From positions 1 through 64,000 of the forward strand of contig CAMDKM010000017.1 in assembly GCA_945900965.1 (NCBI GenBank): a stretch of DNA of 64,000 bases, in the 5' to 3' direction. This stretch comes from Bordetella parapertussis (GTDB taxonomy: Bacteria > Pseudomonadota > Gammaproteobacteria > Burkholderiales > JACQAP01). Within the stretch, counting starts at the first letter, position 1. Each line of letters begins with the position of its first letter. This document shows, in pieces, positions 21,075 to 31,898 of this stretch. The notes beneath the pieces were generated by a model, which worked only from the letters and a program-made list of their open reading frames with translations, had not been told where the DNA came from and ran no database searches. The position numbers and the translations under genes are program-made.

Positions 21075-24000
21075 TCAGGCCACGTCCCGGTAAATGTTGT
21101 CGCCGTCTCCGTAGTAGGCCTCGTAAACATGCTCGAATAGGGCGTCACACTTGGAGCGATAAAGCTCCTTTGTATAGCCCGGCGGCAGTCCTTCGTCGAG
21201 CATATCTTCAATGGTAATTTTTACCTGTGCCCGGGCGCTTGCCCGCTTGCGCCAATCGAGAACAAGCAGGGAATTCAACCGCTCCAGAAGGTGATGCGCC
21301 ACTTTCTTGACCTCGTCACGCTCCGCAGCGGACAGCTCCGGACCAGGCCGTGTCAGGATGTCGAATACTGTCAACTCGGCTTCGGTCAGATGCTCCCGCA
21401 GGTGCCGTCCCTGCTCATCTGTCAGCGCTCCGGTCAGGGCAAGAAGGTCCCTGAATATCTCTTCGATGTTGCGGCTGCCGTTGTTGTACGCCTCTATCAG
21501 GGCTTCGAATTTTTCCAGGTAGTCGGTTCGCGTGCGATTGAGACGCACCATGCGTTCGAGTTGAGTCTTTACTGCCGCCTTGAGCCGTTCGAGGTCAGAG
21601 TTGGTCGGTTTCTTCTTTTCGAAGCGCTTCGCCAACTTCTCGAAATCGATCTTCGATAGATCGATCACGGCATAGGCGCGATCTCCAGACTTGATCTTGA
21701 ACGGCTCGGCACCGATCGAACGGTCGAGCAGTTCCTGAATGCCCTGCATGACATGCGAGATATCGGGCGGGTCACTGCGGTTTCGGATGTAGTCCGCGAG
21801 CGCTCGAATCGATCCGCAGCGCACCGCGAACTCAACGGCAACGGGATCCGGCTTCACCGCACCGTAGAGCGCGTCGACCAGACGAGCCTGGGCAAGAAAA
21901 TCCCGCTTTACCATCTCCGGCGCAAGCAAGAGGTTGGCGCCGTCCTCCACCGCCTGCGCCCGTTCGAATTTCTCGGCCGACGTCCCCTCGATTCTGCCGA
22001 GATCCACCCCATGAGCACCGCAGTAAGCCGTGGTATCAGCGACGGTCTTGCGCAATTCCGCCACCAGTTCCTTCTTGTCCCGCACCGGCAAGCTTCCGCC
22101 GCGTCCCTTGGCATAGATGGCAAGCGCACGCTCCAGTGACGCGAATACGTTTGCGTAGTCGACGATCACGCCGCTGTGCTTGCCAGGAAACACGCGGTTC
22201 GCACGAGCAATGGTCTGCATGAGCGTGTGATTACGCATCGGCTTGTCGAGATAGATCGTCGAGCAACTCGGCGCATCGAACCCGGTCAGCCACATGGCGC
22301 ACAGGAACACCAAGCGCAGCGGGTCATCCGGGTCCTTGAACTTCTCGTCCAGCGCCTGCTCGTTCATACGCTTTCTGTGCGGCACGATTTCGAGACCGAC
22401 CTTCTTCATTTGCTCGATTTCGTTCTGGCCAGGCGACACCACCACCGCCATGTCAGTGCCGTCAGTCATCGGCCAGTGCTTGCGCACCTTGTCGTACATG
22501 CGTAGCGCCGTGGCCTTATCGATGGACACCACCATCGCCTTGCCCTGAAAGCCTCGTCCGGTGAAATGGCGCACGATGTCCTTTGCTACCGTGTCCAGTC
22601 GATCGTCACGGGTGATGAGGTGATACTGGCGGGACAGTTCGCGCTCCAGCCGCTCTTCCTGCTCGGGGTCCAGCGCGGCCTGCTCAATCACCTCGTAGAG
22701 TTCGTCGTTCAGGTCCGGGTTGATCAGTTGCAACTCCGGGGTCCGGTTCTCGTAGTAAAGCGGTACCGTGGCCCCGTCCTCGATCGACTGCTGGAAGTCG
22801 TAGATCGAAATGTAGTCGCCGAAGACTTCCTTGGTCCGTTCTTCGCCTGCAATCAGCGGCGTGCCGGTGAAGGCGAGAAACAGCGCTTTGGGCAACGCGG
22901 CACGCATGTTCATCGCCAGCGTGTCGTACTGGCTGCGGTGTGCCTCGTCGGTGAGCACGATCACGTCCGGCCGGTCGCACAGGACTTCGGGTGTCTGGAA
23001 CTTTTGGATCAGCGTGAATACGTAGCGGTGGTTTTCGGAAAGAAGCCTGCGCAGTTCCGCGCCGCTCTGCGCGTGGCAGATATCACCCTCCGCTTCAGTT
23101 ACAGCGCCGCAGGCCTTGAAGGTCTTGGCGATCTGGTCGTCCAGCTCCACGCGGTCGGTGACGACGACAAAGGTCCAGTTTCCGGGGACTTTGCGCAGAA
23201 TCTTCTGTGCGAAGAACACCATCGAGAAGCTCTTGCCGCTGCCTTGTGTCTGCCAGAACACCCCTCCGCGACCATGACCCGCCTTGCGCGCCTCGTGCAT
23301 CGCGGCAATAGCGTTATTCACGCCGAGATACTGGTGGTTCTGCGCCAGTGCCTTGACCAGACCGCTCTTGTGCTCGGAGAAAAGCGTGAAGTTCTCCACG
23401 ATGTCGAGCAGCCGCGCGGGAAGACAGGTGCCCCGCAACATCACCTCCAGCGACACCCGGCGCGGCTCGTCCTCGCGCTCGATGCGCTTCCACTCGGAGA
23501 AGCGCTCCCAGTCCGCCGTGATCGACCCGACCCGGCTGTCCGTGCCGTTCGAGGCGATCAGGAAGGCGTTGGACCAGAAGAGTTGCGGGATGCCATTCTG
23601 CAGATGCTTGTAGCTCGTCAGGTTTTCGTCGAAGGCACGCCGCGCCGAAACGCCGGGCTTCTTCAGTTCGATGACCACCCACGGCAATCCGTTCACGAAG
23701 CCGACGAGGTCCGGCCGGCACGTATAGAGCTGCCCCGTGACCGTCATCTGGGAGACGAGCAGGAAATCGTTGGCTTCCGGATTCTCCCAATCCACCACCC
23801 GTACCCGTTCGTCCCTGAGACCGCCTCGCTCCCGGTCAGGCACCACTACTTTCACGCCGTCCTTCAAGAACGTCCAGACCTCGCGGTTCGCACCGGGGAG
23901 CGTCATTGCAGAGCGGTCGCGAGTCAGCTCGTCGACTGCGCTTGTAATCGCCTCTGGCGGCAATCGCGGATTCAGCCGCTCCAGCACGGCACGCAGCAGG

Positions 24001-24155
24001 GGTGTGAGGACAACATCGCCCGATGTTTCGCGGCCAAGTGTGCCCCCAGCCCCAAAGATCTCTTCCGCCGCCGAGACCGTTTGCCACCCTAAAGATGCAA
24101 ACAGCCCGATTGCGGGCTGTTCGACTAGCTGATCTTCGGAGTATTCACCCGACAT
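21075..24155 (-). CDS. hsdR: Type I restriction enzyme R subunit
   Basis: RPDLVGFVNGLPWVVIELKKP (nuclease), WQTQGSGKSFSMVFF (Walker A), VLTDEAHRSQYD. Confidence 0.95.
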   Translation of the reverse strand: MSGEYSEDQLVEQPAIGLFASLGWQTVSAAEEIFGAGGTLGRETSGDVVLTPLLRAVLERLNPRLPPEAITSAVDELTRDRSAMTLPGANREVWTFLKDGVKVVVPDRERGGLRDERVRVVDWENPEANDFLLVSQMTVTGQLYTCRPDLVGFVNGLPWVVIELKKPGVSARRAFDENLTSYKHLQNGIPQLFWSNAFLIASNGTDSRVGSITADWERFSEWKRIEREDEPRRVSLEVMLRGTCLPARLLDIVENFTLFSEHKSGLVKALAQNHQYLGVNNAIAAMHEARKAGHGRGGVFWQTQGSGKSFSMVFFAQKILRKVPGNWTFVVVTDRVELDDQIAKTFKACGAVTEAEGDICHAQSGAELRRLLSENHRYVFTLIQKFQTPEVLCDRPDVIVLTDEAHRSQYDTLAMNMRAALPKALFLAFTGTPLIAGEERTKEVFGDYISIYDFQQSIEDGATVPLYYENRTPELQLINPDLNDELYEVIEQAALDPEQEERLERELSRQYHLITRDDRLDTVAKDIVRHFTGRGFQGKAMVVSIDKATALRMYDKVRKHWPMTDGTDMAVVVSPGQNEIEQMKKVGLEIVPHRKRMNEQALDEKFKDPDDPLRLVFLCAMWLTGFDAPSCSTIYLDKPMRNHTLMQTIARANRVFPGKHSGVIVDYANVFASLERALAIYAKGRGGSLPVRDKKELVAELRKTVADTTAYCGAHGVDLGRIEGTSAEKFERAQAVEDGANLLLAPEMVKRDFLAQARLVDALYGAVKPDPVAVEFAVRCGSIRALADYIRNRSDPPDISHVMQGIQELLDRSIGAEPFKIKSGDRAYAVIDLSKIDFEKLAKRFEKKKPTNSDLERLKAAVKTQLERMVRLNRTRTDYLEKFEALIEAYNNGSRNIEEIFRDLLALTGALTDEQGRHLREHLTEAELTVFDILTRPGPELSAAERDEVKKVAHHLLERLNSLLVLDWRKRASARAQVKITIEDMLDEGLPPGYTKELYRSKCDALFEHVYEAYYGDGDNIYRDVA

Positions 24156-24929
24156 TCAGTGATGAACGAGCGGCTGATAGTCATTGGAACTCATCGGTTC
24201 CACGCCAACGGGCAGAGTGCCTTCAAGTTCGATAAGGGCACGCTGGTTCGTGGGTGCCGGCTCCGGATTGATCCGGACCACTCGCGCACTCACCTGGCGG
24301 GACGCCTCAGACATTGCATGGAGAAAATCCATAACCAGGTAGCGCGGCGTCCAGCCAATCATGAAATAGTCGTCCGTCGTTTCGAGCTGGACCGCTGCCC
24401 CGGTTGCGGGATTGTTCAACTCGATAGCAACGCGAAGCGCTTCCCCCGGATTTAAGCGAGCAAGCCGTGCCTGGGATGCGGCATTTACATGCCGCCATCC
24501 ATGCAGGAAGAATCGGCACACAAAACTTCCGTCCCGGCGCGGCTGGATCTTGGGGAACACTTCCAGGTGGTCCGTTTGCCGTTCACCTCCGCTGACGGAA
24601 AGAATGTCGATTGGATCGGTATGCCGGGGATCGAGCGCAAGCCGCTTCACGTATTCCGCGTAGTCGCTTCGGCGGGGGCTGATCACGCGGTTCTGAAACA
24701 GGGGAAAAAGCTCGCTTGCCTCATAAACACGATCCGGCTTGGGAAACGCCTCAAGGTAGCCGAATCCGGCCTCGGACATGGCCCGCTCGGCCCCCCGGGT
24801 ATAGGTAAAGCGGTAGCTTGGCTCCTCTGGGACGACGTCAAGCCGTCCAATGGGGTACCAGGCGCGCGATGCCGGCATCCCGGCAACTGCCGGGCGGCTG
24901 GCCTGCCATGCTAAAAATAGGGTCTTCAT
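24156..24929 (-). CDS. HIRAN-like domain protein
   Basis: MKTLFLAWQ...YPIGRL; LNPGEALRVAIELNNPATGAAVQLETTDDYFMIGWTPRYLVMDF; 4-nt overlap upstream and abuts hsdR downstream. Confidence 0.6.
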   Translation of the reverse strand: MKTLFLAWQASRPAVAGMPASRAWYPIGRLDVVPEEPSYRFTYTRGAERAMSEAGFGYLEAFPKPDRVYEASELFPLFQNRVISPRRSDYAEYVKRLALDPRHTDPIDILSVSGGERQTDHLEVFPKIQPRRDGSFVCRFFLHGWRHVNAASQARLARLNPGEALRVAIELNNPATGAAVQLETTDDYFMIGWTPRYLVMDFLHAMSEASRQVSARVVRINPEPAPTNQRALIELEGTLPVGVEPMSSNDYQPLVHH

Positions 24930-25855
24930 TTGTCCAATGCCTTGATCCTGGAGAGTGTAAAGGCTAACAGCCCTTTAACGAAAGCCTTCGATTCCGCCGT
25001 CATCATTCCCGGCGGCACCCGATCCACCAGACCATCCAATTGCCCTCGCTCCAGTTTCTCAACCGAGGCAAGCCACGGTCTGAAGTAGCCTGGCCATCTA
25101 CGGACCGCCACCTCCAACAACTTAAGCGGATTGGCCCCGTCTTGCTCCTTTTCGCCCAAATAAATTCCACCCGTGGCGCGCTCGGCGTACCACTGTGCAC
25201 GCCAATCCTCCTTAAGCCATTCCGTCAGCTTCGCCGGCGGCTCGTTGCGAGCCAGGCTGGACGCATGGTCGAAGCTGGGAGCGACCTCATGGGTGACAAC
25301 ATCCCCCGCCTGGGTAGTGCGCAGGACGGCCCAATTCTCATGATGTCGATCCGTATTCAGGATCAGGCCATCGAGAACCATGTAACCGGCAAGCCTGCCA
25401 AAAGCCAGGTCGCGCTCGGCCGCGTTCGGGAACAACCGTTCCAAAACCTTCAGAATATTGTTGAGCGTATGGTCCGTCTGCTTGCGCTGCTTGGTGCGGT
25501 CGTAACCGGTCACGAAGCCCGCCAACAGGACGTTTCCATGCACGAGGTCAGTTGCCGGGGTTCCGGATAACTGCGGAAACCGCCGGCTCAGGCTGCCGGG
25601 CCGCCCCTCCAGGGAAGCCAGCTCTACGTCGGCATGAGGCACTCCGATCAGGGACGCGATTTCAGCAGCCAGCTTTTCTGCCCAGTGCTCCCCTGTGATG
25701 TGTCCGGCACTTTCCCGAGCGAATTTGAAGAGCCAGCGCTCGTTTCTGTCAGGCCAGAACACCCATTGTTTCTCCTTGCTCCCCATCTGTTCGTCCGCGA
25801 TGAACCAACGGGGGTGGACCTGGATGATCGGGAAGGACTCAGCGGATGTCATCAC
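24926..25855 (-). CDS. HipA-like kinase domain protein
   Basis: GEHWAEKLAAEIASLIGVPHADVELA; catalytic-loop-like LILNTDRHHENWAVL; metal-binding-like APSFDHASSLARN. Confidence 0.75.
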   Translation of the reverse strand: MMTSAESFPIIQVHPRWFIADEQMGSKEKQWVFWPDRNERWLFKFARESAGHITGEHWAEKLAAEIASLIGVPHADVELASLEGRPGSLSRRFPQLSGTPATDLVHGNVLLAGFVTGYDRTKQRKQTDHTLNNILKVLERLFPNAAERDLAFGRLAGYMVLDGLILNTDRHHENWAVLRTTQAGDVVTHEVAPSFDHASSLARNEPPAKLTEWLKEDWRAQWYAERATGGIYLGEKEQDGANPLKLLEVAVRRWPGYFRPWLASVEKLERGQLDGLVDRVPPGMMTAESKAFVKGLLAFTLSRIKALDK

Positions 25856-26057
25856 ACGCAGGCAGCTTCAAACAGTCCACGTATCTCTCGCAGAAGCAGT
25901 TATCCATTGCTCCAATAGCCATCGCTACTGCAGCTCCTCGGATATCTCTTGGCACCTGCGGTACATCACCGGCTATTTCAAGGGCGTGCGCCTTCGCATG
26001 GAGCACAAATAAGCGGATCATTTCGCTTTCGAAATCCGTTTTAGCTGTAGTGGGCAT
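25839..26057 (-). CDS. Short (72 aa) HEPN-like ORF, possibly a truncated HEPN gene
   Basis: IRLFVLHAKAHALEIAG...RDIRGAAVAMAIGAMDNCFCERYVDCL resembles the N-terminus of RiboL-PSP/MAE_28990-type HEPN proteins; starts a few nt after the DUF262 stop and overlaps the HipA start. Confidence 0.4.
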   Translation of the reverse strand: MPTTAKTDFESEMIRLFVLHAKAHALEIAGDVPQVPRDIRGAAVAMAIGAMDNCFCERYVDCLKLPACDDIR

Positions 26058-26062
26058 GCAAC

Positions 26063-27814
26063 TCAGATTTTCTCGAATCCGTCTCGAATCACCTGCGCGA
26101 TGAGGCCGCGACGTTTCTTGAGGAATTCTTCGTAGTTCATCGTCTCCCAATTCTCCGGCAACGCGTGCCAGTAGTGGGCGCTCAACCAATCGGCCTTTGT
26201 ATAGCGATTCTTGAATTGCGGCCAATAGTCTGCCGGTGACTGAGCGGAGATGTCGGCGTTATCCGGCCACTCGATGAGTGCGTAGTTCGCAATTTGGTTT
26301 GTTTGATAGATCTCCGGAAAGCCGTTCTTCTTCAGCCAATCCTTTGGGAACAGATGATGCCGCTCAAGAGAATTGCGGAACGCATCCGTGGTCGGATCGA
26401 GCAATGATCCGACTTTCAGACCGGAGAACAGAACCTTCGCGTCAAGCAGACAGAGCGCGGCCAGATACGCCATCAGAGATGGACTACGCGCCGCCGCCGT
26501 GTCCAAATCGTTCGGCAACGTCACCCGCCAGAAATCATCCGTCAGCTGGGCGACAATGTTCTTGTCCACAAATGCGAGGAATCCTGCACCATCTTTCACG
26601 TCGCGGAGTTGGATGAGGTCGCTTTCCAATGCCGATTCGGGCGAGCTTGTGTAGCGGCCCGTAAGGCTGGCGAAAAAGAACCAACGGGCGATCGCCCTAC
26701 GAATATCGTTTTCTGCCAGATTGAACTCGACCTTTCCAAGTAGATAAAGCACGTACGTGTAAAGAACCGTAGTCTCTGACGTAATGACTTTGCCGCCGCG
26801 AAATCCAGCGCGCATTAGGCATTTCAGGAAGTCTTTCCAGTGCTGGAGATTCAACGTGCATGCTTGCGCATCCTTCAACTGGTCGAATTGAGCTATCCGC
26901 CGTTCCTCGCTGAACTTGCCTGTCTCAAGATCCTTCCCGCGCAGGAGCGAATACACATACTGAAGTCGACCACGCTTGAAGCCGTAGCCCACAGCAACGC
27001 GGAGAAGCTGATCTGGGGACGGTTGGAGGAAGTGGTTGTAGGGCGTAGGTGCCTTTGCCGGAATCTTCGCCGCCCGGGCAAAGCGTTCAAGTTCGTGCCG
27101 GCCCTCATCCCAATACACCGACATAAGTGTGAGGATGAAGTCAGCCTCGTTGAGCCGCTGGCCCTTGCTGTTGATGCGGACGAAGACTTGGCTGACTTGC
27201 TCCTCGTTGACCGTCGCGAGCAGTTCCAGTGCGCGGAACGGATAGTTCACCATCCCCTGCAATCGTTGGATGTTTTGCCTGATCTTCTTGGTGTCGTCCG
27301 CGGTGACTTCCCGCGTCTGCTTCAACGCATCCAAGTATGCGTCCACCAACTCGAACAAATCCGTGTCCGGTGACCATAGCCGTGAGATATTGGGCAGCCA
27401 ATTCTTATCTCTTCGAATGGCCGCGTCCGCCACCTCGAACCGTTCCTCGATCGGGTGAAATGCGATTTCGATGAATTCCTCGCTGTAATCCTCCCGGATA
27501 ACCTTCTTTCCCTTCACGACCGCATACAGCGAAGTCAGACGTTGCTGTCCATCCACAATCAATAAGCTCGGATGCTTCTGCTTTCCACCTACGCCGATAG
27601 TCTTAGAGCCGTCGGCGCTCGCGTTCTGCCAAAGCAAAAGGTAGCCAACCGGAAAGCCACGATACATCGAGTCAAACAGATCTCTCGTCTTCGCATTCTT
27701 CCAGACGAATGGCCGCTGGATTTCCGGCAGGCCAATCACACCCATGTCGATTTGGTCGAGCAACGAGCCGACGTTGTAGCCAACTTCATTGAATAGGAGG
27801 TTGGTGTCTTTCAT
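26063..27814 (-). CDS. DUF262 domain protein with C-terminal HNH/DUF1524-like region (GmrSD-like)
   Basis: LPEIQRPFVWKNAKTRDLFDSMYRGFPVGYLLLW; LLIVDGQQRLTSLYAV; LERHHLFPKDWLKKNG...NQIANYALIEWPDNADIS. Confidence 0.88.
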   Translation of the reverse strand: MKDTNLLFNEVGYNVGSLLDQIDMGVIGLPEIQRPFVWKNAKTRDLFDSMYRGFPVGYLLLWQNASADGSKTIGVGGKQKHPSLLIVDGQQRLTSLYAVVKGKKVIREDYSEEFIEIAFHPIEERFEVADAAIRRDKNWLPNISRLWSPDTDLFELVDAYLDALKQTREVTADDTKKIRQNIQRLQGMVNYPFRALELLATVNEEQVSQVFVRINSKGQRLNEADFILTLMSVYWDEGRHELERFARAAKIPAKAPTPYNHFLQPSPDQLLRVAVGYGFKRGRLQYVYSLLRGKDLETGKFSEERRIAQFDQLKDAQACTLNLQHWKDFLKCLMRAGFRGGKVITSETTVLYTYVLYLLGKVEFNLAENDIRRAIARWFFFASLTGRYTSSPESALESDLIQLRDVKDGAGFLAFVDKNIVAQLTDDFWRVTLPNDLDTAAARSPSLMAYLAALCLLDAKVLFSGLKVGSLLDPTTDAFRNSLERHHLFPKDWLKKNGFPEIYQTNQIANYALIEWPDNADISAQSPADYWPQFKNRYTKADWLSAHYWHALPENWETMNYEEFLKKRRGLIAQVIRDGFEKI

Positions 27815-27818
27815 AACA

Positions 27819-29042
27819 TCACGCGGCTGTCTCCAGTGAGACCTGCCCGGAAAGCAGACGCGGCAGAAGCAGGTCACGCGTCCGGCGGAGGTTCGTGATT
27901 TGGAAAATAAGCGTCTGTTGCTGCGCGATGATGTCAGCGAACAGTCCGGAAAATCGTTCGGCCACTTTGCCTTTCGGAATTACAACCTCGTACTTCTCCA
28001 GCACATCCCAATTCGCACGCGGCATCTTGGCTCCGTTGGAAGTCGCACTCGCCTCAGCGACGAATGCATCGCTGGAAACGCACGCGACCACCAGAGCGTG
28101 ATGCTCCGGGCGACGAGCACGGACGACGATGGTGTCGGCGGAGCACACACCATCGAACGGTGCAACGATAACTTTGTGAAAATAAGGCCTAATCTTTCCG
28201 AACAAAACTTCGCCTTTCTTGAACTCCAGCTTATTCGAACCGAGGTCGGTCGCTGTTTCCCAAGCATCGAGCGCGAGTGAGCGGCGCGGAATATGTTCCA
28301 AGCCGACATAAGGCTTTGGTTCGTTGAGTTCGCCCTTTGGCACATTGCGGCGCATGTCCTCCGCAATGTCGCCAAGCTTCTTCACCTCCCAGCCTTTAGG
28401 AATATCCCCGAGCGGGGAGGCGATGCGCGAGACTCTCTCGTGACCAGGAAAACGGAAGTGGACGAACCACTCGCGGTAGAGGGCGCGGGCCATCTCCTCC
28501 AATATCCGGATGCGCCGCTGACTGTTCTCCATCAGCTCGTCGTAGGCTGAAAGGATGCCTGCTATCTGCTGTTGCACTGGAAGCGGGGGAACGCGGAAGT
28601 CAAACGATAGGAGCTTTTCCAGACTCAAATTGTCCTGCGTTGTGCCGCGCGAGACGCTCTGCATCTGGAGCTTCAGAGTGTCCATGTAGTATTTGATGAA
28701 GCGGACATCAGCCTTGTCGGGGTCCGCGATAAAGCCGACGACGCTGTCGGGGAAACATCCCTCAATGCCGAGAATTGCACTCTCGGCGATATTCGCGGCA
28801 ATCGTGATGCAAAGAGTTCCGGGCTTCCAAAGTTTGCTCTGCGCAAGTCCTTCTTCGCTGTACGTCTGGGTGTATTTGGTGAGATGGAAATTTGCAGCCT
28901 TGATGTCTCCTGTTTGGAAGAACGGATAGCGCCCGCCGTAAAGTAACGCTGCATCGCGAGGTCGATGCCTCGATTTACCCCGACCAACGAAACCAAGTTC
29001 GTCGAGTTTTGCGGGTTTCCATTCAGCCGTCGCCATCACCAC
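27819..29042 (-). CDS. hsdS: Type I restriction specificity subunit S
   Basis: Two TRD-like halves; VPPLPVQQQIAGILSAYDELMENSQRRIRILEEMARALYREWFVHFRFPGHE; C-terminal LLLPRLLSGQV. Confidence 0.95.
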   Translation of the reverse strand: MVMATAEWKPAKLDELGFVGRGKSRHRPRDAALLYGGRYPFFQTGDIKAANFHLTKYTQTYSEEGLAQSKLWKPGTLCITIAANIAESAILGIEGCFPDSVVGFIADPDKADVRFIKYYMDTLKLQMQSVSRGTTQDNLSLEKLLSFDFRVPPLPVQQQIAGILSAYDELMENSQRRIRILEEMARALYREWFVHFRFPGHERVSRIASPLGDIPKGWEVKKLGDIAEDMRRNVPKGELNEPKPYVGLEHIPRRSLALDAWETATDLGSNKLEFKKGEVLFGKIRPYFHKVIVAPFDGVCSADTIVVRARRPEHHALVVACVSSDAFVAEASATSNGAKMPRANWDVLEKYEVVIPKGKVAERFSGLFADIIAQQQTLIFQITNLRRTRDLLLPRLLSGQVSLETAA

Positions 29043-29118: not shown

Positions 29119-30156
29119 TCACTTCTTACCTCGCTTCTTAGTTTTGGGACGGGGCGGCAGTTGTTTGATGGCCTTGTCAAAATCGCCTCCGTCTTGATCG
29201 GTTTGTTTGATCTGTTCGCGATGGAATTTCTCGAATTCCGACTCGGCCAGTTCTTTGGCCATTTCGTGCGAGATTTTCCCCGCGTGATTCAGAATGGAAC
29301 GTTCGTTCAGAGTCAGAAAGCCGTTGAGTTTGGCGATCCACTCGCGCATGTGCATGGGGACGCGGCGCATGGCCTGGCCTTCGGCGAAGACGAGGTATTG
29401 CTCGACGAGATTGTTCAGCGCGGCAAGTTCTTGTTCGTCGAGATAGTTCTTGGCGATGGTGACATCCTGCTTGCGGACTTTCGCGCCGCGCCAGTTGGTC
29501 AGACCCATGTGGGGCTTCGCGGCATCGGCGCGCTTGTGAACGATCTCCGCCGCGGTGTGGCCGGTGATGGCCCAGTGCATTTTGTTTTGAACGGTCTGGA
29601 AGAATTCAATGCTGACCGGCTGGGTGGGATCGTAATCGACGCTGGTGGCGTAGATGTCGGTGATCTTCTGGTAGAAGCGCCGCTCGGAGGTGCGGATGTC
29701 CTGAATCCGCCGGAGTAACTCATCGAAATAATCGAAGGGCTGGTCGGGATTTTTCAGGCGTTCGTCGTCGAGAACGAAGCCCTTGACGATGAATTCGCGG
29801 AGTTGTTGCGTGGCCCAGATGCGAAAGCGGGTGGCGACGGCGCTTTTGACGCGGTAGCCGACGGAAATGATGGCGTCGAGGTTGTAGAACTTCGTTTGAT
29901 AGCTCTTGCCATCGGCGGCAGTTATCAAGGATTCCTTGATAACTGACTGTTCCGCCAATTCGTTCTCTTTAAAGACATTTTGCAGGTGCAGGCTCACGTT
30001 TTGCCTGGTGGTCTGAAAGAGAGCGGCCATATGCTGCTGGGTCAGCCATACGGTTTCGTTCTCCAGCCGGACTTCGATTTTCGTTCGCCCGTCCTCCGCC
30101 GAGTAGACCAGGAACTGTCCCTTGGCCGGAGGACCGGGCTTTTCCGAATCGCTCAT
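29119..30156 (-). CDS. RhuM family protein
   Basis: [77 protein letters not shown]. Confidence 0.93.
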
Positions 30157-31898
30157 GTTTCCAGAATCTCCGCCACGTTGGCGGCGATGGTTAGTTCGAG
30201 GTCATGCGCGTGGGCGTTGAGGGCTTCGAGTTCCTCGCTCAGCGTTTCGAGTTGTTCCTTGAAATCCTCGTTGCTGACTTCCTCTCCCGGCGCGACGCCA
30301 ACGTAGCGGCCAGGATTGAGCGACCAGCCCTGCGCTTCGATTTCTTTCAGGTTCGCAGCTTTGCAGAGCCCTGGGATATCGCGATACCCCACGCCGAGGT
30401 AGCGCGCCGACGGTTCGGCTGCTCGAAGCACGGCGCCTTTCTTGCCATTACCCTGGTCCTCTTCCATGGATGGGGAAGAGGGAGAAAAGCATTCGATGAG
30501 TTTCGCCTTCGCTTCGTCACCGCCAAGGGTGAAATCAGGCTCTTCGCCACGGTAAAGCCGAACTATGTTCGCAAGGAAACTGATTTGCGCCTCGGTCCAG
30601 TCGCGGTGGGCGCGATCGATCTGACGATAGATATGGCGAGCGTCGATGAAGAGCACGGTGTCGGCTCTGCTTCTTCCCTCACCCCCGGCCCCTGTCCCGG
30701 AGGGCGAGGGGAGCTTGGACTTGCCGCGATCGAAGAACCACAGGGTGCAGGGAAGCGTGACGGTGTAGAACATGTTCGGACCGACGGCGACGACTGCGTC
30801 CACCGCACGGGACTGGACGAGCTGCTTGCGGATTTCCAGTTCGGAGGCGCGGGCGTCGCTCGCGGAGTTGGCCATGACGAAGGCGGCGCGGCCTTTGTCG
30901 TTGAGCGAGGAGTAGAAGAGCTGGATCCAGAGGTAGTTGGCGTTGTCGGTGCGCGGCAGGCCGAATGGGAAGCGCCGGCCCGGGCCAATGGCGTCTTTGA
31001 GTCGTTCCTTGTCCACCGCGTTGACGTTGAACGGCGGATTGGCGAGCGCAAATTCGAAGGCACCCACGGCCTTGTGCGGGTCGTCGTAGTAGCTGTTGAC
31101 CTCACCGCCGTGCCGGATGTCGCCCTCCAATCCGTGCACGGCGAGGTTCATGCGGCACAGGCGCCCGGTTTCGTCGGTCTTTTCGACGCCGAAGATGGAG
31201 AGCTCGGACGAGGGGTTTTTCTTGTGCTCGGCGACGAAGCGCGCGGACTGGACGAACATGCCGCCCGAGCCGCAGGCCGGATCGAGGATGCGGCCGTGAA
31301 AGGGCTCGATGATTTCGACCATGAGGCGCACGATGGGCGCCGGGGTGTAGAACTCGCCGCCCTTCTGCCCCTCGGTGCGGGCGAACTGGCCGAGGAAGTA
31401 TTCGTAGATGCGCCCGAAGGCGTCGTAGTCGAGGCTGACGGGGATCTCGGAGACCTTCTTCAGCAATTCCTTGAGGAGGGTGCCGTTGAAGATCTGATAG
31501 TTGCGCGGCAGCACGCCCGCGAGCTGCGGGTTGTGCTTCTCGATGTCGGCCATCGCCTCGTTGACGGCCTTACCGACGTTGCTGCCTTCAGGCCGCTGCA
31601 GCAGGTAGTCGAAGCGGGAGTTCGGCGTCAGGAACAGGACGCCTTCGGCCATGTACGCCTTGGGGTCGTCTATGCGCGACGCACCCCTGCGCGCGGATCC
31701 CCCGGCCTTCTCAAGCTCGGCGCGCCGCTTGGCGTAACGCGCTTCGGCAAAACGCAGGAAGATCAGGCCCAGCACGGGCGCCGAGTACTGCCCCGCCTTC
31801 AGCCCGGAATTGGCGCGGAACTGGTCCGCCGCCGCCCACAGGCGTTTTTCCAGCGTTTCATTGGCAGCGTCTCTTTCGGTGGGCGCGATCCAGCGCAT
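30153..31898 (-). CDS. hsdM: Type I DNA methyltransferase M subunit
   Basis: [16 protein letters not shown] and [28 protein letters not shown]. Confidence 0.96.

Follow-up and report, generated by a model that had tools for sequence, protein, structure and literature searches.

A HipI kinase and HipN (HipS-like plus HIRAN) gene pair of the hipIN kind within a type I restriction operon

Described systems closest to the locus

Kinases of the HipA family are known for persistence. In the predicted hipIN toxin-antitoxin family (Gerdes, Baerentsen and Brodersen, 2021, mBio; PMC8262856), the kinase HipI is paired with HipN, a putative antitoxin made up of a HipS-like and a HIRAN domain, and sensing of phage DNA ends by HIRAN was hypothesised to trigger abortive infection. 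Type I embedding is not described in that work, from whose main text the word "restriction" is absent. PADLOC holds a candidate defence system, PDC-M03, among its PDCs, which according to PMC12988326 come from a "guilt-by-embedding" screen and are embedded in known immune systems; PMC13356809 cites the preprint underlying the PDCs (doi 10.1101/2024.01.29.577857). In HipBST of E. coli O127 and Legionella, the kinase and the HipS antitoxin domain of HipA are separate proteins; in Legionella, HipS reshapes the P-loop of HipT and thereby prevents ATP from binding (PMC9325769). A toxin gene within a type I operon is known from EcoprrI, which has the order hsdM-hsdS-prrC-hsdR (PMC3014915). Its product PrrC, an ABC-NTPase/HEPN anticodon nuclease, is held silent within the type Ic complex until the T4 protein Stp releases it (PMC3874165). 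The HIRAN domain of HLTF has a DNA-binding cavity edged by Tyr72 and Tyr93, and the substitution NN90,91AA abolishes its DNA binding (PMC4666394).

In the window (the whole 64,000-nucleotide stretch of DNA that was analysed), two genes immediately upstream of hsdR encode adjacent, full-length matches to PDC-M03A and PDC-M03B, so that this composition already has an entry among candidate defence systems. The preliminary description had read the pair as a HipA-like kinase and a HIRAN-like protein and knew of no characterised system of such composition. The feature is real and was correctly read, but it belongs to a described kind, hipIN/PDC-M03, and its composition is not new. Our literature search found no experimental study of any hipIN, and the PDC papers searched gave no activity or mechanism for PDC-M03. 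In common with the published hipIN, the window pair is bicistronic with the kinase gene first, the kinase lacks N-subdomain-1, and the downstream product joins a HipS-like domain to HIRAN. HipBST, in contrast, has hipS upstream of hipT, a separate HTH protein (HipB) and no HIRAN, whereas in the window the HipS-like gene lies downstream, is fused to HIRAN and is accompanied by no visible HipB; the pair is thus not a HipBST. The likeness to EcoprrI, a latent translation-stopping toxin gene in the same hsdM-hsdS-X-hsdR slot, is positional only: PrrC has no sequence kinship to HipI or HipN, and the meaningful Pfam matches of the window pair were HipA_C and HIRAN. To the published family we add the HipS-like half of HipN by profile comparison, an altered HIRAN pocket, recurrent type I embedding against a matched control, and prophage carriage. 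Three things reported separately come together at this locus: hipIN as a predicted family, PDC-M03 as a candidate for defence, and the slot held by prrC in type I operons.

Organisation of the operon

The window contains a complete type I operon, recognised from the ORF list, Pfam and PADLOC as a cluster of eight ORFs running in one direction on the minus strand. From 5' to 3' the order is hsdM, RhuM, hsdS, GmrSD-N/DUF262, a 72-aa ORF, hipI, hipN and hsdR (Table 1); hsdM, RhuM, hsdS and the GmrSD-like gene are absent from the preliminary description.

Table 1. ORFs of the type I operon, in order of transcription, with profile matches
Gene	Position	Strand	Description	Pfam and other profiles	PADLOC
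hsdM	30153..31898	-	type I N6-adenine methyltransferase subunit; first gene of the operon	N6_Mtase 1.7e-74; HsdM_N 1.1e-21	MTase_I
RhuM-family gene	29119..30156	-	RhuM-family protein, between hsdM and hsdS	Virulence_RhuM 1.4e-112	PDC-S05 1.2e-146
hsdS	27819..29042	-	type I specificity subunit	Methylase_S 2.7e-25	Specificity_I 1.8e-111
GmrSD-like gene	26063..27814	-	GmrSD N-domain (DUF262) protein	GmrSD_N 2.8e-29	HEC-05 8.9e-34
72-aa ORF	25839..26057	-	short ORF between the GmrSD-like gene and hipI; overlaps the hipI start		
hipI	24926..25855	-	HipA-core kinase without N-subdomain-1	HipA_C 2.3e-12	PDC-M03A 4.3e-110
hipN	24156..24929	-	HipS-like domain (~residues 1-116) and HIRAN (~135-238); putative antitoxin/sensor		PDC-M03B 3.9e-76
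hsdR	21075..24155	-	type I restriction/translocase subunit	HSDR_N 6.7e-41; SWI2_SNF2 2.1e-70; TIGR00348 485.9 bits, above cut-off	

Both junctions on which the preliminary description had based translational coupling were found as it gave them. The open reading frames of hipI and hipN overlap by 4 nt (ATGA, 24926-24929 on the minus strand), and the TGA stop of hipN abuts the hsdR ATG with zero gap (CATCAC TGA ATG TCG). Three Nitrospira loci (L033-L035) show the same zero-gap junction, and that of L037 is nearly as tight. At the other end of the operon, the RhuM gene overlaps hsdM by 4 nt. The likely start of hipI is GTG 25855 or ATG 25852; the GmrSD-like ORF is open from 27877, with a likely start at ATG 27814.

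The RhuM and GmrSD-N/HEC-05-like genes are two further defence-type genes in the window operon. Near relatives L034 and L035 have neither the RhuM gene nor the GmrSD-like gene, which suggests that the M/S and S/hipI junctions are where the operon gathers cargo. The 72-aa ORF gave no match in the Pfam search and none to an HTH family, and a reading by eye of this ORF as HEPN was dropped for want of Pfam support; it is possibly a truncated gene, perhaps left by an insertion or deletion at this junction. When one genome of the same genus was searched for an empty site, an aldo/keto reductase gene alone aligned nearby, synteny being broken.

Domain make-up of HipI and HipN

HipI has 309 amino acids, and its match to HipA_C begins at residue 25, in keeping with the kinase identity originally proposed. 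Its motifs comprise the P-loop (GS25-26), the ATP-binding Lys44, the catalytic NTDRH..N stretch (D169, N174) and the metal-binding Asp196, and by profile its nearest solved relative is CtkA (1.6e-17). In an alignment of 80 HipI relatives, Lys44, Asp169, Asn174 and Asp196 were invariant (80/80), and a Ser or Thr followed the P-loop Gly25 in 73. The relatives were sought with the NTDRH and W58..E60 stretches as seeds, so part of the conservation of these two is built in; neither Lys44 nor Asp196 was a seed. HipI is thus a HipA core kinase without N-subdomain-1 that carries P-loop, catalytic and metal motifs, as in the published hipIN. In one locus, L037 (2117-3045), hipI is broken into two ORFs of 101 and 171 aa next to uninterrupted hipN and hsdR, a possible case of kinase decay or of assembly error.

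HipN was anticipated to be a HIRAN-like protein, and that fold stood; the protein, however, is made up of two domains, of which the N-terminal one is HipS-like. Couple_hipA, the HipA N-terminal domain of Pfam, was found in 13 of 81 HipN relatives, though not in window HipN, and a PDB profile search with HipN returned HIRAN matches only, with no HipA or HipS, so the HipS-like assignment rests on those 13 relatives together with an HMM-HMM match. For the latter, HipN residues 1-116 were compared (hhalign) with a profile of 18 canonical HipA N-domains; residues 27-116 were colinear with them at a score of 25.8, against at most 17.2 in 50 column shuffles. On these comparisons the N-terminal half of HipN is homologous to HipA N-subdomain-1/HipS, the domain expected at this place in a hipIN downstream gene, and HipN would bear, as a built-in putative antitoxin, the lid missing from HipI. 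The precedent of HipS acting on HipT offers, by homology, a concrete mechanism of inhibition. Identity to the window protein among relatives ranges from 46-64% for HipN and from 36-53% for HipI; HipN is thus better conserved than its kinase, which is not typical of a labile antitoxin and counts against the toxin-antitoxin model.

The match of window HipN to Pfam HIRAN (2.2e-4) lies under the gathering cut-off, and HIRAN was found in 78 of the 81 relatives (best 1.5e-10). An AlphaFold (AF2) model built from 81 sequences reached a pLDDT of 94 and a pTM of 0.89; in Foldseek its top matches in the PDB were lp_0118 and DNA-bound HLTF HIRAN, and its matches among viral structures were mostly HIRAN proteins. 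The model is consistent with a HIRAN fold for the C-terminal half, the position that HIRAN occupies in hipIN, and structure prediction therefore sided with the original reading.

Residues were equated between HLTF and HipN by profile alignment and the conserved GxR motif. Equivalents of two HLTF residues are retained in HipN: R71 corresponds to R146 (Arg in 73 of 81 relatives) and N91 to N173 (Asn in 79). Tyr72 corresponds to H147 (His in 54 and Tyr in 17 of 81), the His110 position is occupied by W193 (Trp in 74/81), and neither the stacking Tyr93 (Ala175 in HipN) nor Asp94 (Thr176) is kept in the subfamily, a difference from the published hipIN as well as from HLTF; HipN also lacks the fused helicase or RING of HLTF/Rad5. 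From these equivalences the pocket appears to be kept but re-shaped, and DNA binding is plausible. With the equivalents of Tyr93 and Asp94 gone and Tyr72 mostly replaced by His, binding to DNA ends may be altered or lost. The 3'-end pocket of HLTF being partly changed, the end-binding initially proposed cannot be assumed. The N-x-Y-D motif absent from the window subfamily is present in the HIRAN domain of L137, a Vibrio phage locus.

Distribution of hipIN and its possible role

We collected 80 hipIN loci from a species-level genome collection. In 79 of them hipN adjoins hipI downstream on the same strand, the 80th being cut by a contig end, and the offset between the two genes is mostly -4 (ATGA). 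This order and tight spacing argue that the window arrangement is not due to chance. Seventeen of the 80 loci are embedded in a type I operon and 63 have no recognisable one; because embedding was scored by the similarity of neighbours to the Hsd proteins of the window, divergent type I systems are undercounted. The embedded loci comprise nine with the order M-S-I-N-R, some with extra ORFs or contig-end cuts (L032-L035, L037, L065, L066, L070, L081), three with one large gene before hipI (L050, L053, L062), two with I-N-R (L046, L054) and three in which the pair lies downstream of S (L059, L073, L074; L059 reads R-M-S-I-N). The window belongs to a clade of five loci with 100/100 support, all embedded, from Pseudomonadota, Eisenbacteria and Nitrospirota, whose members share with the window 67-72% identity in HsdM and HsdR, 60-64% in HipN and 50-53% in HipI. 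The hsdR partners of hipIN range down to 38% identity to window HsdR.

On the HipI tree, embedding requires 10 changes of state, gain and loss not being separable, with at least 8 changes forced by well-supported branches; this is fewer than in any of 500 shuffles. Type I embedding is therefore clustered but recurrent. We rejected a single origin on the number of changes, and an obligate tie of hipIN to hsdR on the 63 loci without a recognisable type I operon. In order to compare hsdR contexts, we used HSDR_N and the 50 loci with longer flanks: 12 of these 50 hipIN were embedded, versus 1 of 60 canonical HipA among the matches listed (Fisher p = 5e-4). The control took the 60 canonical HipA N-domain places listed in the same 50 genomes and counted those no more than 10 kb from a listed HSDR_N match; the ratio is rough, given counts among matches listed and some short contigs. 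The pair is thus not randomly placed with respect to hsdR.

Many relatives are free-standing, outside recognisable defence operons, and others are carried by mobile elements. In four integrated tailless phages of Vibrio cyclitrophicus hipIN adjoins the integrase, and it occurs on Nostoc, Oscillatoria, Mycolicibacterium and other plasmids. Distribution is patchy, with PDC-M03A matched in 11 of 399 genomes of the order. In the integrated tailless (Vinavirales) Vibrio phages L137 (PQ189359.1, 10953-12646), where the 4-nt overlap is present, and L138, the pair lies in the interval between late genes and integrase that is the usual cargo site.

We lean, with slightly better than even confidence, towards the window pair being a hipIN toxin-antitoxin embedded in a type I operon and acting as a self-contained back-up abortive defence through DNA-triggered release of the kinase. 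HipI would be a minimal HipA-type Ser/Thr kinase kept inactive by HipN, whose HipS-like domain would stand in for the missing N-terminal lid and block ATP binding at the P-loop, as HipS does on HipT. HIRAN would serve as a sensor of DNA structure, be it phage DNA ends, ssDNA, or replication or restriction intermediates; its binding would change HipN and free HipI. The freed kinase may then phosphorylate an essential translation component (for HipA and HipT, a tRNA synthetase) and stop growth before phage release. Placement between hsdS and hsdR, at the site held by prrC in EcoprrI, would give co-expression with the restriction enzyme, and the pair is probably a second line of defence. Sensing of DNA ends coupled to a back-up abortive module, as first suggested for this locus, thus remains the most plausible role and coincides with the published hypothesis (PMC8262856), with trigger and target both putative.

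The main rival, in our analysis, borrows more from PrrC: the HsdMSR complex would hold and silence HipI-HipN and let them go when a phage anti-restriction protein disables restriction. The operon slot is that of prrC, whose product is handled in just this way; the zero-gap hipN/hsdR junction is kept in Nitrospira, and the window clade is embedded throughout, across at least three phyla. Yet most hipIN lie outside recognisable type I operons and the hsdR partners are divergent, so that the family as a whole does not require contact with any one Hsd complex; HipN, moreover, already brings a HipS-like antitoxin domain. With free-standing hipIN in the majority, such silencing is disfavoured as a general rule, and we hold it to be rather unlikely. 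For the embedded clade alone (window, Eisenbacteria and Nitrospira) we tentatively raise, at a similarly low level of confidence, that hipIN might be an integral fourth type I activity, a kinase equivalent to PrrC, either kept quiet by the Hsd complex or reading the DNA ends which that complex makes, and firing when restriction fails, its HIRAN pocket being adapted to type I products and not to generic 3' ends.

The pair could instead be a plain addiction module that retains the restriction operon, prophage or plasmid carrying it, any anti-phage effect being incidental. Its toxin-antitoxin architecture, its plasmid and prophage carriage and its patchy occurrence would suit such a role. Restriction-modification operons, however, are already self-stabilising through post-segregational killing, and the repeated placement of hipIN in defence operons, together with a conserved domain of DNA-binding type, suggests a sensing role, which makes simple stabilisation distinctly unlikely. 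Regulation of restriction itself, through phosphorylation of Hsd subunits by HipI or joint binding of DNA ends by HipN and HsdR, for instance to curb cutting of the host's own DNA where it is damaged or unmodified, is suggested by the translational coupling to hsdR and by HLTF HIRAN acting beside a SWI2/SNF2 translocase (PMC4666394), which HsdR likewise is, but is very improbable, most relatives (63/80) being in no recognisable type I operon and the module also occurring beside unrelated enzymes; nor, given those 63 loci, is hipIN a regulator dedicated to HsdR.

DNA-triggered defence remains our preferred reading. A HipA kinase joined to a likely DNA-structure sensor and found repeatedly in restriction operons and also in prophages points to anti-phage defence as the role of some HipA-family members, and hipIN offers a compact system for testing DNA-triggered kinase release.

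Several further neighbourhoods were observed. In two Latescibacterota type I operons (L050, 2842-7296; L053, 5510-9976), a protein of 1484-1488 aa lies between hsdS and hipIN; in L050 it gave a weak AAA signal alone in Pfam and no PADLOC match. In L157, a fused type IIG/type I restriction-methyltransferase precedes hipIN, and a single ORF of 440 aa separates the two. In another hipIN subfamily, the pair in L159 (332-13129) has DruE/DpdE-like helicase genes on one side and a DrmMI-like methyltransferase gene on the other; the arrangement in L162 (5413-19148) is similar, with a methyltransferase gene opposite the helicases. Both have the look of an unnamed defence operon.
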